Source: Aureibaculum sp. 2308TA14-22 (GTDB lineage Bacteria; Bacteroidota; Bacteroidia; Flavobacteriales; Flavobacteriaceae). Taken from it: a stretch of 64,000 nucleotides of DNA. The notes under the pieces were generated by a model. The model was not told where the DNA came from. It searched no databases and worked only from the letters and a program-made list of their open reading frames with translations. Below are positions 20,772-51,175 of this stretch, piece by piece. Location of the stretch: the NCBI RefSeq assembly GCF_040538665.1, contig NZ_JBEWXT010000001.1, positions 1,018,501 through 1,082,500 on the forward strand, read 5' to 3'. Position numbers and translations under genes: made by a program. The stretch's first letter is position 1, and the number at the start of each line of letters is the position of its first letter.

Positions 20772-20863
20772 ACTATTTTCGTTTACAAAGATATAAGAAT
20801 TTTATCTTATAATAGGACGTGGTTTGGGGCACTTTGTTACACTAATTTGTATAGAAAATATAC

Positions 20864-28525: not shown

Positions 28526-28599
28526 GCCGATATAGCTCAGCTGGCTAGAGCAGCTGATTTGTAATCAGCAGGTCGTGGGTTCGAGTCCCTCTATCGGCT
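28526..28599 (+). tRNA. tRNA-Thr (TGT)
   Basis: 74 bases. Acceptor GCCGATA/TATCGGC, anticodon stem GCTGA/TCAGC with loop TTTGTAA, and T loop GTTCGAGTC. No encoded CCA. Confidence 0.95.
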
Positions 28600-28639
28600 C
28601 AATAATATTAAAATTAGTTCTTTGAATTAAATTTTTTTT

Positions 28640-28721
28640 GGGGAGATACCAAAGTGGCCAACTGGGGCGGACTGTAACTCCGCTGACTTCGTCTTCGTAG
28701 GTTCGAATCCTGCTCTCCCCA
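28640..28721 (+). tRNA. tRNA-Tyr (GTA)
   Basis: 82 bases with a long variable arm. Acceptor GGGGAGA/TCTCCCC, anticodon stem GCGGA/TCCGC with loop CTGTAAC. Confidence 0.95.
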
Positions 28722-28772
28722 CAAAAATTGTATTAAAGTACCATCTCTATACTTATTTATTGTATAGAAAAT

Positions 28773-28845
28773 GCGAGAGTAGCTCAGTTGGTAGAGCGTC
28801 AGCCTTCCAAGCTGAATGTCGCCGGTTCGAACCCGGTCTCTCGCT
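28773..28845 (+). tRNA. tRNA-Gly (TCC), copy 1
   Basis: 73 bases. Acceptor GCGAGAG/CTCTCGC, anticodon stem TCAGC/GCTGA with loop CTTCCAA. Confidence 0.95.
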
Positions 28846-28891
28846 CAAAATATCACATAACCAATAATTTACTTTGGAAATTGTGCAATAT

Positions 28892-28965
28892 GCGGGAGTA
28901 GCTCAGTTGTTTAGAGCGTCAGCCTTCCAGGCTGGAGGTCATTGGTTCAATTCCAGTCTCCCGCT
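28892..28965 (+). tRNA. tRNA-Gly (TCC), divergent copy 2
   Basis: 74 bases. Acceptor GCGGGAG/CTCCCGC, anticodon stem TCAGC/GCTGG (one T-G pair) with loop CTTCCAG. Same anticodon as the preceding tRNA, but acceptor, T arm and D loop length differ. Confidence 0.9.
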
Positions 28966-29021
28966 CTAAGTTCAAGAGTTTAGATAGGCGGTTGTCGTTA
29001 ATCTGAAGTCGGTAATTGTAA

Positions 29022-29093
29022 GCCGGTGTAGCTCAGGGGTAGAGCGTTTCCTTGGTAAGGAAGAGGTCACGGGTTCAATTCCCGTCATTGGCT
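29022..29093 (+). tRNA. tRNA-Thr (GGT)
   Basis: 72 bases. Acceptor GCCGGTG/CATTGGC (two G-T pairs), anticodon stem TTTCC/GGAAG with loop TTGGTAA. Confidence 0.93.
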
Positions 29094-29153
29094 CGAAATT
29101 AAATACAAGAATAACTAAATATATATAATAACTAAGATTTAAAATTAATAATC

Positions 29154-30338
29154 ATGGCAAAAGAAACTTTTGATCGTTCCAAACCGCACTTAAACATAGG
29201 TACAATTGGACACGTAGATCACGGTAAAACAACTTTAACAGCTGCAATTACTAAAGTATTAGCAGACAAAGGTCTTTCTGAAGTAAAAAATTTCGACCAA
29301 ATCGATAACGCTCCAGAAGAAAAAGAGAGAGGTATTACTATTAACACATCTCACGTAGAATATGCAACTGCTAATCGTCATTATGCACACGTTGACTGTC
29401 CTGGTCACGCGGATTATGTAAAAAACATGGTTACTGGTGCTGCTCAAATGGATGGTGCTATTTTAGTAGTAGCTGCAACTGATGGGCCTATGCCTCAAAC
29501 TAGAGAGCATATCTTATTAGGGCGTCAAGTTGGTATTCCAAGAATTGTAGTTTTCTTGAATAAAGTTGATATGGTTGATGACGAAGAGTTATTAGAGCTA
29601 GTTGATATGGAAGTTAGAGATTTATTAAACTTCTATGAATATGATGGTGATAATGGACCTGTAATTTCTGGTTCTGCTTTAGGAGCTTTAAATGGTGAAG
29701 AGAAATGGGTAAATACCGTTATGGAATTAATGGATGCTGTTGATAACTGGATTGAGTTGCCTAAGCGTGATGTTGATAAAGATTTCTTAATGCCAGTTGA
29801 AGATGTATTCTCTATTACTGGTCGTGGTACTGTTGCTACTGGTCGTATTGAAACTGGTGTTGCTAATACTGGTGATGCAGTTGATATTATTGGTATGGGT
29901 GCTGAAAAGTTAGCTTCTACAGTAACTGGAGTTGAAATGTTCCGTAAAATATTGGATAGAGGTGAAGCTGGTGATAACGTAGGTATCTTATTAAGAGGTA
30001 TTGAAAAAACTGATATTAAAAGAGGTATGGTAATCTGTAAGCCAGGTTCTGTAACTCCGCACGATAAGTTCAAAGCTGAGGTTTATATCCTTAAAAAAGA
30101 AGAAGGTGGTCGTCACACTCCTTTCCATAACAATTATCGTCCTCAGTTTTATGTAAGAACAACTGATGTTACAGGTACTATTAATCTGCCTTCTGGTGTA
30201 GAAATGGTTATGCCTGGTGATAACTTAACTATTACTGTTGATTTACATCAACCAATTGCAATGAACGTAGGTTTACGTTTTGCAATCCGTGAAGGAGGTA
30301 GAACAGTAGGTGCAGGTCAGGTAACTGAAATTTTATAA
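29154..30338 (+). CDS. tuf: Elongation factor Tu
   Basis: 394 residues. [13 protein letters not shown] (P loop), [27 protein letters not shown] and the C-terminal [14 protein letters not shown] identify EF-Tu. It delivers aminoacyl-tRNA to the ribosome. It lies 60 bases after tRNA-Thr, in the common bacterial tRNA-tuf-tRNA-Trp-secE-nusG order, and is likely cotranscribed from the promoter at 28454. A hairpin without a T tract separates it from tRNA-Trp. Confidence 0.99.
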
Positions 30339-30381
30339 GACACCTAATAAATAGTTTTAGTTAAATATATATTATAGGTAT

Positions 30382-30407
30382 AGGTGCTCCTTTAATTAGG
30401 AGCACCT
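30382..30407 (+). promoter_or_regulatory. Perfect 9-bp hairpin between tuf and tRNA-Trp
   Basis: AGGTGCTCC pairs with GGAGCACCT around an 8-base loop. No T run follows, so it is more likely an mRNA-stability or processing element than a terminator; tRNA-Trp begins 11 bases later. Confidence 0.6.
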
Positions 30408-30417
30408 GATATTCTAT

Positions 30418-30490
30418 ACGGGTGTAGCTCAGTTGGTAGAGCACCGGTCTCCAAAACCGGGTGTCGGGAGTTCGAGCCTCTCCACCCGTG
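30418..30490 (+). tRNA. tRNA-Trp (CCA)
   Basis: 73 bases. Acceptor ACGGGTG/CACCCGT, anticodon stem CCGGT/ACCGG with loop CTCCAAA, T loop GTTCGAGCC. It sits in its conserved place between tuf and secE. Confidence 0.96.
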
Positions 30491-30570
30491 CAAATAGTAA
30501 AAAATAGAGTGATTCAAAATTTAAATTTACTCAAAGTGAATTTAATAAAGTATCATAAAAAATAAATACA

Positions 30571-46491: not shown

Positions 46492-46596
46492 CTTTTGAAG
46501 CAATAAAAACTTATTGTCGTAAATTTAGAATAATATTTTTACAAAAGTGCAACACTACATTTTTTTAGTCGTATTTAATACAGAAGAATAGCTAGA

Positions 46597-47145
46597 ATGA
46601 ATCAAACCAAGTACTTGCATGCTGATTTAATCAAGAAATGCAAAAACAATAATTCAAAAGCTCAGATGCAAGTTTATGATTTGTATTGTGATGCAATGTT
46701 TAAAACGGCATTTAACTTTACAAAAGATAAAGCAGTGGCTGAAGATATGATGCAGGAGTCTTTTATCAAGGCATTTCAGAAGTTAAATCAATTTAATGAA
46801 AGTGTGTCGTTTGGAGCTTGGTTAAAAAAAATAGTGGTAAATCAATGTTTAGATTATTTAAAAAGGAGAAAACTAAAAATTGTAGAAATAAATGAAAATC
46901 ATTTACAATTAACGGATGAGGATAATTGGAAAGTACATCCTTCTATTTCAATAGATCAAATACTTTATGCCATTGAACAATTGGCAGAAAATTATAAAAT
47001 TACGTTGAAGTTATTTTTATTGGAAGGTTACGACCATCAAGAAATTGCCCAAATACTAAACATAAGCGAAGTAACTTCTAGATCACAATTATTTAGAGCA
47101 AAAAATAAATTGAAACAATTGCTAAAACAAAAAGATTATGCTTAA
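46597..47145 (+). CDS. ECF-type RNA polymerase sigma factor
   Basis: 182 residues. Region 2 (DLYCDAMFKTAFNFTKDKAVAEDMMQESFIKAFQKLNQF) and region 4 (LFLLEGYDHQEIAQILNISEVTSRSQLFRAKNKLKQLL) are both clear. There is no anti-sigma FecR gene; instead the next gene overlaps by 8 bases and encodes a single-span membrane protein. It probably reports on envelope state. The regulon cannot be read from this window. Confidence 0.93.
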   Translation: MNQTKYLHADLIKKCKNNNSKAQMQVYDLYCDAMFKTAFNFTKDKAVAEDMMQESFIKAFQKLNQFNESVSFGAWLKKIVVNQCLDYLKRRKLKIVEINENHLQLTDEDNWKVHPSISIDQILYAIEQLAENYKITLKLFLLEGYDHQEIAQILNISEVTSRSQLFRAKNKLKQLLKQKDYA

Positions 47146-50470: not shown

Positions 50471-50503
50471 AAAAAAAAGATAAGTCGATTAAGGCTTATC
50501 TTT
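50471..50503 (-). terminator. Intrinsic terminator for the minus-strand mini-ORF cluster
   Basis: On the minus strand AAAGATAAG pairs with CTTATCTTT and a run of T continues (A tract at 50471-50478 on the plus strand). The plus-strand side has only a poor T tract, so the structure favours stopping leftward transcripts from the mini-ORFs, though it could also end yidD. Confidence 0.75.
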
Positions 50504-50534
50504 ATTCGTTTGTTAGAAGACTTTTCATATTTAA

Positions 50535-50645
50535 TTAATAACTATATTGTCTATAATTGGTCCACAATAATCTTTTACTAATTTTTGTTGGTGAAAAGAG
50601 TGTATTTCTACACGATTCTGTCGTTGTTTTTAGTAATGTGTTCAT
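50535..50645 (-). CDS. Mini-ORF C: 36-residue cationic peptide, third of cluster
   Basis: ATG at 50643-50645, TAA at 50535-50537. The product starts MNTLLKTTTESC and ends LLWTNYRQYSY, with no acidic residue except one glutamate. Its C-terminus shares the W-x3-R-x-Y pattern with mini-ORFs A and B, and its N-terminus the M-x-T-L start. It lies 32 bases downstream of mini-ORF B and 32 bases before the terminator hairpin. No known family is recognised. A real gene is supported by the shared pattern but not proven. Confidence 0.45.
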   Translation of the reverse strand: MNTLLKTTTESCRNTLFSPTKISKRLLWTNYRQYSY

Positions 50646-50677
50646 AATTTAAAGTTTTTAAGGTTAGTTGTTTTAAT

Positions 50678-50761
50678 CTATTTGTAGCGTCTGTTTTTAT
50701 TCCAAATACTACTAGATGCATTTCCTAAAGTTAATTTTACTTGATTTTTTAAAGTTCTCAT
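50678..50761 (-). CDS. Mini-ORF B: 27-residue cationic peptide
   Basis: ATG at 50759-50761, TAG at 50678-50680. It starts MRTLKNQVKLTL and ends IWNKNRRYK, has seven basic and no acidic residues, and has no signal peptide. It is a direct duplicate of mini-ORF A: 77 of 84 bases agree, no indel, and the first 13 codons are identical. Differences include two silent codon changes and TAG for TAA. An A-rich leader precedes it, as is usual for genes of this group. Confidence 0.5.
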   Translation of the reverse strand: MRTLKNQVKLTLGNASSSIWNKNRRYK

Positions 50762-50799
50762 AATTTTGTTTTTTAGATTTATTGTTAATTTTCTTTTGT

Positions 50800-50883
50800 T
50801 TAGTTGTAACGTCTTTTTGTATTCCAAATACAACTAGATGCGTTTCCTAAAGTTAATTTTACTTGATTTTTTAAAGTTCTCAT
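50800..50883 (-). CDS. Mini-ORF A: 27-residue cationic peptide, first of cluster
   Basis: ATG at 50881-50883, TAA at 50800-50802. It starts MRTLKNQVKLTL and ends IWNTKRRYN, with a single cysteine at residue 18 where mini-ORF B has serine. It is the promoter-proximal member of three tandem mini-ORFs. A near-consensus -7 box (AAGATTTG on the minus strand, 50926-50933) lies 42 bases upstream, and a palindrome lies just beyond it. No known family is recognised. Confidence 0.5.
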   Translation of the reverse strand: MRTLKNQVKLTLGNASSCIWNTKRRYN

Positions 50884-50941
50884 TTCTGTTTGTTTTTAAT
50901 TGATTTACACTTAATAGACGAGCATCAAATCTTTTTGTTAC

Positions 50942-50964
50942 AGTACTATGTTATAAATAGTACT
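50942..50964. promoter_or_regulatory. Palindromic candidate operator upstream of the mini-ORFs
   Basis: AGTACTAT (50942-50949), a 7-base spacer, then ATAGTACT (50957-50964): a perfect 8-bp dyad. It is centred where the -33 region of the putative minus-strand promoter would be, so it may bind a dimeric regulator. It also could form an RNA hairpin. Confidence 0.5.
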
Positions 50965-51175
50965 ATTTTAAGGAATATTTAACACATTTTTTAAGGATTT
51001 GGAACATAAAATACAATTTAAACTCCTGAAATTTAAGTTTTTAACTTAAAAATAGTAAAATAAATGAAAAGTAAAAAAAGTTCTAGATAAAGTTTAAAAA
51101 AGGGTGTTTTTAAACTTTTAAGAAATAGAAGAGGGGTGTTATTTTATTAATTACGTTATACTTTAGCGTAATTTT
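50965..51175. other. Intergenic spacer without a supported gene
   Basis: AT-rich. It holds only a 7-bp AATTACG/CGTAATT hairpin at the end of the GlmU-like gene and two chance ORFs under 15 codons. No homology-like coding signal was seen. Confidence 0.6.

Follow-up and report, generated by a model that had tools for sequence, protein, structure and literature searches.

Small cationic microproteins behind a predicted ECF-type promoter in Aureibaculum and other Flavobacteriaceae

A tandem cassette of small open reading frames

The window analyzed here is a stretch of 64,000 nucleotides from Aureibaculum sp. 2308TA14-22, a member of the Flavobacteriaceae (contig NZ_JBEWXT010000001.1, positions 1,018,501 to 1,082,500). 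On its minus strand lie three closely spaced small open reading frames (ORFs), A, B and C, which are preceded by a predicted promoter of the extracytoplasmic function (ECF) sigma factor type and followed by a terminator-like stem (Table 1). As judged from the homologues compared below, the mini-ORFs are under purifying selection at the protein level and constitute a genuine microprotein family.

A sequence-only reading of this DNA had described three minus-strand ORFs of 27, 27 and 36 codons followed by a terminator with a minus-strand T tract, and this arrangement was recovered in full, with gaps of 38 nt between A and B and 32 nt between B and C. As that reading also stated, A and B differ at seven bases without an indel, and ORF C retains both M-x-T-L and W-x3-R-x-Y. 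Codon comparison accounts for all seven differences: two are silent in sense codons, four replace an amino acid and one turns the stop codon from TAA into TAG. The repeat unit as a whole is a 122-nt direct repeat of 80% identity, and ORF B possesses an open TTG extension reaching 50833, its ATG being the conserved start. With 2 synonymous substitutions over 15.3 sites and 4 non-synonymous substitutions over 65.7 sites, selection is not provable from the A-B pair by itself.

Table 1. Features of the cassette and its control region in the window
Feature	Position	Strand	Description	Basis
ORF A	50800-50883	minus	27 aa, MRTLKNQVKLTLGNASSCIWNTKRRYN	ORF listing, A1 profile search, dN/dS
ORF B	50678-50761	minus	27 aa, tandem duplicate of A	ORF listing, repeat analysis, dN/dS
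ORF C	50535-50645	minus	36 aa, longer partner peptide	C-profile match, E 3.6e-8
Terminator-like stem	50473-50506		T tract on minus strand, weaker T tract on plus	Sequence analysis
ECF-type promoter (predicted)	50916-50942	minus	TGTAAC -35 at 50937-50942, 16 nt, CGTCT -10 at 50916-50920	
Inverted repeat over -35	50940-50966		10-nt arms, 9/10 complementary, 7-nt spacer	
Upstream GTTAA-repeat part, diverged version	50967-50985		nearer consensus in other genera than in own	

Relatives of the A peptide are widespread in the family. A single A-peptide query gave matches in 33 of 100 genomes, its own included (E<=1), and a profile built from 26 rows of A peptides (A1) matched 122 of 249 Flavobacteriaceae genomes (E<=0.1), many of them at 1e-12 to 1e-15 and part of them as weak single matches. 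When the same profile was run against a class-wide draw of 296 genomes, which includes at least ten from Flavobacteriaceae, two were matched (E<=0.001), both Flavobacteriaceae. A scan of named genomes yielded at least 79 loci, from Algibacter, Lacinutrix, Winogradskyella, Hyunsoonleella, Flavivirga, Aquimarina and others, with loci L063 and L111 belonging to Mesoflavibacter; subtraction of L110 and L118, which did not fit the regular expression used for A peptides, leaves the set of 77 cassettes analyzed below.

The typical A peptide has 28 residues, MRTLNNNQLTGTLxxTKSNxWNxKRRYR, and the typical C peptide 44, MKxxxKISRxLNxITQENL...WKGTKRYAH, while the forms from the genus itself measure 27 residues for A and 36-37 for C. 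Since the regular expression requires the initial M, T3 and an ending of the form W..R-R/K-Y/F/W, the invariance of these residues is partly built in, and the tryptophan is not universal among A-like peptides, locus L260 being the exception. The genus also carries a 23-residue A paralogue (MKTLKLTLENTNGTIWNRKRRYR and kin), found at the same position in five genomes examined, which had been picked because the single A-peptide search, or the genome of the window itself, gave a match there.

Among 100 clusters, in which some loci are counted twice (L063-L082 against L083-L161), one A copy is present in 46, two in 43, three in 7, four in 3 and five in 1. C follows A in at least 49 of them, a lower bound because the count used a ceiling of 60 aa and a limit of 200 nt; in L087 the C ORF is extended by an upstream Met. 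A profile built for C found matches in 43 of 248 genomes, and in a by-eye comparison each match had an A copy or, in genome G290, the promoter element no more than a few hundred bases away. The neighboring genes vary between genera among the 20 regions compared, and the cassette can therefore be regarded as an independent unit. Judged by a simple criterion, 33 of 76 cassettes have a terminator no further than 300 nt away. At two loci the A copies are followed by an ORF of 112-113 aa with a signal-like N-terminus and no Pfam match (L070:8132-8473 and L073:8381-8722), and a similar-looking ORF without a Pfam match, at L183:1562-1897, has a TGTAAC/CGTCT site of its own.

Homologues with a preserved reading frame are thus present, and their substitutions are spread unevenly over codon positions. 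Across 74 disjoint sequence pairs of A, the ratio of non-synonymous to synonymous substitution rates (dN/dS) is 0.175, compared with 2.24 and 1.29 in the other frames, and 434 of 763 differences fall at third codon positions. Because the ORFs had been selected by motif, the ratio was recomputed on codons 4-20 alone, giving 0.249. For C, 14 pairs give 0.182 against 1.39 and 1.17 in the other frames, and third positions account for 189 of the 340 differences. Furthermore, adenine occurs at -3, -6, -12 and -13 in 93%, 78%, 98% and 89% of 123 distinct A start contexts and in 85%, 68%, 82% and 71% of 34 C start contexts, and sites resembling a Shine-Dalgarno sequence are rare (2 of 123 A starts, 0 of 34 C starts). 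In Flavobacterium johnsoniae, adenine at these four positions is reported to favor translation (PMC6847099), and, as read from the sequence, the A and C starts show the adenine pattern associated with efficient translation in flavobacteria.

The peptides are strongly basic, as had been noted, with a mean net charge of +5.85 for 165 A peptides and +5.65 for 46 C peptides. The companion suggestion of nucleic-acid binding is a possible reading in view of this charge, although the one likeness of that kind, to a homeodomain helix, is insignificant. The further suggestion that they might be secreted finds no support: the maximal mean hydropathy over 11 residues is 1.07 for A and 0.92 for C, below what a signal sequence needs, and no N-terminal hydrophobic signal segment was seen in any of these peptides by hydropathy, a proxy rather than a signal-peptide predictor. 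Nor do the peptides fit a type I toxin, small, hydrophobic and likewise encoded at tandem loci, there being no hydrophobic membrane-spanning peptide by the same measure. Searches with 26 A and 24 C peptides, and scans of four peptides, gave no significant match in Pfam (best 0.042, one of 24 C), NCBIfam (best 0.091, one of 26 A), PHROGs, scanned with the A peptides (best 0.24), or PDB sequences (best E 0.7 for A and 1.7 for C). Together with the frame-preserving homologues and the third-position excess, these results support the proposal of an undescribed family. Three likenesses were rejected: that of A to the homeodomain helix KIWFQNRRYK is insignificant (E 0.7), and neither the suspected resemblance to the SSB N-terminus (MxTLKNxVxL) nor that of C to ribosomal protein Thx produced such a match in the library or PDB searches. 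A phage or plasmid origin was likewise set aside, since one A peptide matched nothing in the phage and plasmid collections (E<=1).

The upstream neighbor of the cassette, also on the minus strand, is a sugar nucleotidyltransferase gene (PF13562). On the other side of the cassette is a convergent short ORF, presumably yidD, preceded by a gene that we take to be cysS; the terminator-like stem is probably common to the cassette and the convergent gene. Elsewhere in the window, six tRNA genes are clustered at 28526-30491 (Thr, Tyr, Gly, Gly, Thr and Trp), two of them Gly-TCC.

The conserved control region

The sequence-only reading overlooked the conserved promoter, which is the carrier of most of the functional information. 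TGTAAC-N16-CGTC, where N16 stands for any 16 nucleotides, is found in the 200 nt that precede 75 of the 77 named cassettes (0.005 expected per set under a first-order Markov model), the two without it being L119 and L152. The boxes are 16 nt apart in all 75, since six seeming matches with a spacing of 13 are CGTCGTC inside the spacing-16 sites, and the distance from the promoter to the first ATG is mostly 57-88 nt, with extremes of 109 and 162. Alignment of these 75 loci reveals about 95 bp of conserved DNA with an abrupt upstream end, GTTAAAatnTGTTAAnttanTAcTtTGttaTnCATAGTACTGTAACAaa...gTCGTCTatntagTATAA; at the window locus, the conserved unit extends upstream to approximately 50985. In the genus itself the -35 part takes the form of an inverted repeat, ACAGTACTAT-N7-ATAGTACTGT, which is perfect in L080 and L082, matches at nine of ten positions in the window, and could possibly serve as the operator of a second regulator. 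Moreover, TACTTTGT also matches the TAnnTTGY box described as SM5 in Flavobacterium psychrophilum (PMC9723704), and a second promoter is therefore possible.

The conserved DNA identifies cassettes by itself. ATAGTACTGTAAC alone has matches in 114 of 248 genomes, and of 30 such loci 29 (all except L259) gave a readable row, 25 of which lead to cassettes. These comprise 23 flagged loci together with L247, in which the A peptide is masked by an in-frame upstream Met and becomes visible in L078, and L260; the other four (L245, L249, L255 and L258) are chance matches that lack the CGTC box. This route leads to a diverged type, MKASITKTATESKTGQYFSSFRNSKRAQWAQYRNYNR, which is kin of the window's C, and at L260 to a triple without tryptophan, MRTSSETKNRKQFMNSEATSLGYFKRRIA, consisting of three identical tandem 29-aa ORFs that end in YFKRRIA behind a full conserved promoter. 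The window contains a second exact TGTAAC-N16-CGTC, at 20816-20841 on the minus strand, without the following T.

A candidate sigma factor and its putative gene set

Within the genome itself, TGTAAC-N16-CGTCT occurs five times, compared with twice in a reversed control. Four of these sites precede the cassette, a DUF4870 gene, a 169-aa gene and an ECF sigma gene, and the fifth is inside a gene. The sigma gene (L165; G000:C1:1477933-1478439) has its promoter site 44 nt away and heads an operon whose second ORF, of 145 aa, occupies the anti-sigma position and has no Pfam match; a DUF4252 gene comes next. Orthologues of this factor are present in 29 of 30 genomes tested, 27 of them with the TGTAAC/CGTC motif upstream (exceptions L205, L228 (GGTAAC)); a paralogue of tenth strength, L229, does not have the motif.

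In six other genomes the pattern occurs 37 times, compared with zero in the reversed control, and 30 of these sites were fetched for inspection of the genes behind them. They include two cassettes, one sigma gene, four DUF456, three rhodanese, two ankyrin, one DUF4870, one Pmp3, two genes for an 84-86-aa ORF and five single others, as assigned by a Pfam run on ten of the genes and by likeness for the remainder. Membrane-related and stress-type genes are both represented. The two 84-86-aa ORFs (L177:1558-1815 and L186:1218-1469) resemble one another and have a hydrophobic C-terminus; that in L186 has no Pfam match. By raw count, at least one promoter site is present in 232 of 248 Flavobacteriaceae genomes.

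A second candidate for the cognate factor is encoded near the cassette, on the plus strand of the window at 46597-47145, where an ECF sigma gene is followed by a 181-aa ORF and a secreted ORF, presumably DUF4097-like, to 48617. Upstream of it, at 46548-46573, is TGCAAC-N16-CGTATT, conserved in L080 and L082. With its box of the form TGCAAC-N16-CGTA, this factor fits less well than L165 and was not preferred.

The 23-residue A paralogue (L269:3777-3848, corresponding to G000:C1:1796776-1796847, and L265-L268) adjoins yet another ECF sigma operon. Its upstream box is TGCAAC-N16-CGTC in four of five genomes and begins with CGCAAC in L268, with GTTAA repeats ahead of it. This arrangement suggests a second, parallel pair of sigma factor and microprotein.

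Proposed role and its alternatives

Together, these observations make it probable that the cassette is a stand-alone operon encoding a family of small cationic proteins, which is read by RNA polymerase carrying an ECF (stress) sigma factor and is strongly translated under stress. The peptides would be best regarded as stress-induced, cytoplasmic, cationic microproteins acting on a putative target. In this model stress would free the sigma factor, and the freed L165 sigma would transcribe the cassette from the TGTAAC/CGTC boxes, so that several near-identical cationic peptides would be produced in bulk, with the tandem copies raising dosage and a second regulator perhaps binding the conserved inverted repeat. 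The peptides would not leave the cytoplasm, and their common C-terminal module, W-x3-[KR]-x-[YF], would attach them to an anionic partner. Ranked first as this partner, at rather less than even confidence, is the stressed membrane, through either its inner face or one of its proteins, a first guess made because genes with membrane domains (DUF456, DUF4870 and Pmp3) belong to the candidate regulon. RNA or the ribosome would come second, at a somewhat lower likelihood, and a specific protein, for example a protease or the sigma/anti-sigma pair, third and lower again.

Several points count against this interpretation. Six of the 30 fetched sites and one of the five in the genome itself lie inside genes on the other strand, and three of the 30 are without a nearby ORF. 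The sigma factor is present without an A-profile match in five genomes (G017, G023, G024, G034 and G052), and the cassette therefore seems to have joined a regulon that already existed. The cognate factor is uncertain, since other ECF factors have similar TGCAAC boxes. The case for membrane binding consists of charge, Trp and regulon company, and the AlphaFold models, which place a helix across the C-terminal module in both A and C, are too weak to use because of their low confidence (predicted local distance difference test scores of 64 and 63.7).

Among the alternatives, the likeliest, although still rather unlikely, is that under stress the targets of the peptides are RNA or the ribosome. 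A mean net charge of about +6, the invariant-looking KRRY cluster (W and RR being partly imposed by the motif used to pick the peptides) and the weak resemblance to the homeodomain helix are consistent with such binding, yet no significant match to ribosomal or nucleic-acid-binding families emerged from the library and PDB searches. It is improbable, but less so than what follows, that the peptides are feedback regulators binding sigma, anti-sigma or the cassette's regulator. Many small proteins act on larger partners, and the cassette shares its promoter with the sigma operon, with which it is probably co-regulated; however, the sigma factor occurs in the five genomes mentioned above that have no A-profile match, and tandem multiplication suits a bulk effector better than a regulator.

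A transcript that acts chiefly as RNA, either as a regulatory small RNA (sRNA) or as a structured element with incidental ORFs, seems very unlikely. The cassette is indeed short and intergenic, with a predicted promoter and terminator to itself, and Rfp11 of F. psychrophilum, to which it can be likened by description, is an ECF-promoted putative sRNA of similar size (PMC9723704). Nevertheless, dN/dS values of 0.175-0.249 for A and 0.182 for C, the excess of third-position differences, the start context and the variable spacers all argue against this reading, the predicted transcript of the window folds like shuffled sequence (z -0.07), and an Rfam scan gave no match at the cassette. Remoter still is the prospect that the ORFs control a gene downstream, as leader peptides or attenuators: they are very short and close to the promoter, and at L070 and L073 a 113-aa ORF lies closely downstream on the same strand, but no downstream gene recurs among the 20 regions, and the window cassette is followed by a terminator and a convergent gene. 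Finally, ORFs of at least 20 aa are frequent by chance in this AT-rich intergenic DNA (88 in the surrounding 7.5 kb), and chance is nonetheless refuted, almost beyond doubt, by the homologues, the selection measured in pooled dN/dS, the promoter and the start context.

Four known systems come closest to the proposed stress operon. In Porphyromonas gingivalis, PG_0214-0216 and PG_0985-0987 are sigma/hypothetical/DUF4252 operons that changed jointly in a transcriptome related to oxidative stress (PMC10101095). They share the gene order of the L165 operon, and the likeness concerns the proposed regulator rather than the peptides; microproteins go unmentioned in the passages on these operons. The SM6 promoter of F. 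psychrophilum, whose described targets include the small intergenic RNA Rfp11, a rhodanese-related protein and a pair of ECF sigma and anti-sigma factors (PMC9723704), resembles the cassette promoter by description, both being of ECF type with sigma and rhodanese targets, but SM6 also serves genes of the type IX secretion system, none of which was seen in the gene set here. Pos19 of Rhodobacter sphaeroides, a small RNA of the RpoE stress regulon described as coding (PMC5036791), is likewise a short transcript under an ECF stress sigma factor; it belongs to another phylum, and its description, on which the likeness is based, mentions no tandem A plus C build in the passages concerned. Similar to the proposed regulator is EcfO-Reo of Bacteroides and Phocaeicola, a Bacteroidota ECF/anti-sigma pair that answers envelope stress, although its targets are given as NigD lipoproteins, not microproteins, and DUF4252 has no occurrence in the text consulted (PMC13114119). 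Small stress proteins under ECF control are a known kind. No account of the A/C family was found in the open-access literature, a scope outside which most subscription papers fall, and neither the family nor its tandem A plus C build nor its composite promoter seems to have been described.

A broader proposal can be offered more tentatively, at less than even confidence. The composite control region of about 95 bp, comprising GTTAA repeats, a TACTTTG box, the inverted repeat and the ECF -35/-10 boxes, would be kept more strictly than the peptides, while A, two C types and the tandem type without tryptophan would diversify around a basic and aromatic C-terminal module by which they dock to a single conserved receptor in times of stress. 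The cassettes may accordingly encode modular cytoplasmic stress effectors of Flavobacteriaceae.

Conserved promoter DNA can reveal microproteins that a peptide search misses or barely sees, as at L254, L256, L260 and L264. The cassette represents a gene family that is absent from curated libraries and present in about half of the Flavobacteriaceae genomes sampled, and together with it come a promoter, a probable sigma factor and a set of genes that may share its regulation.
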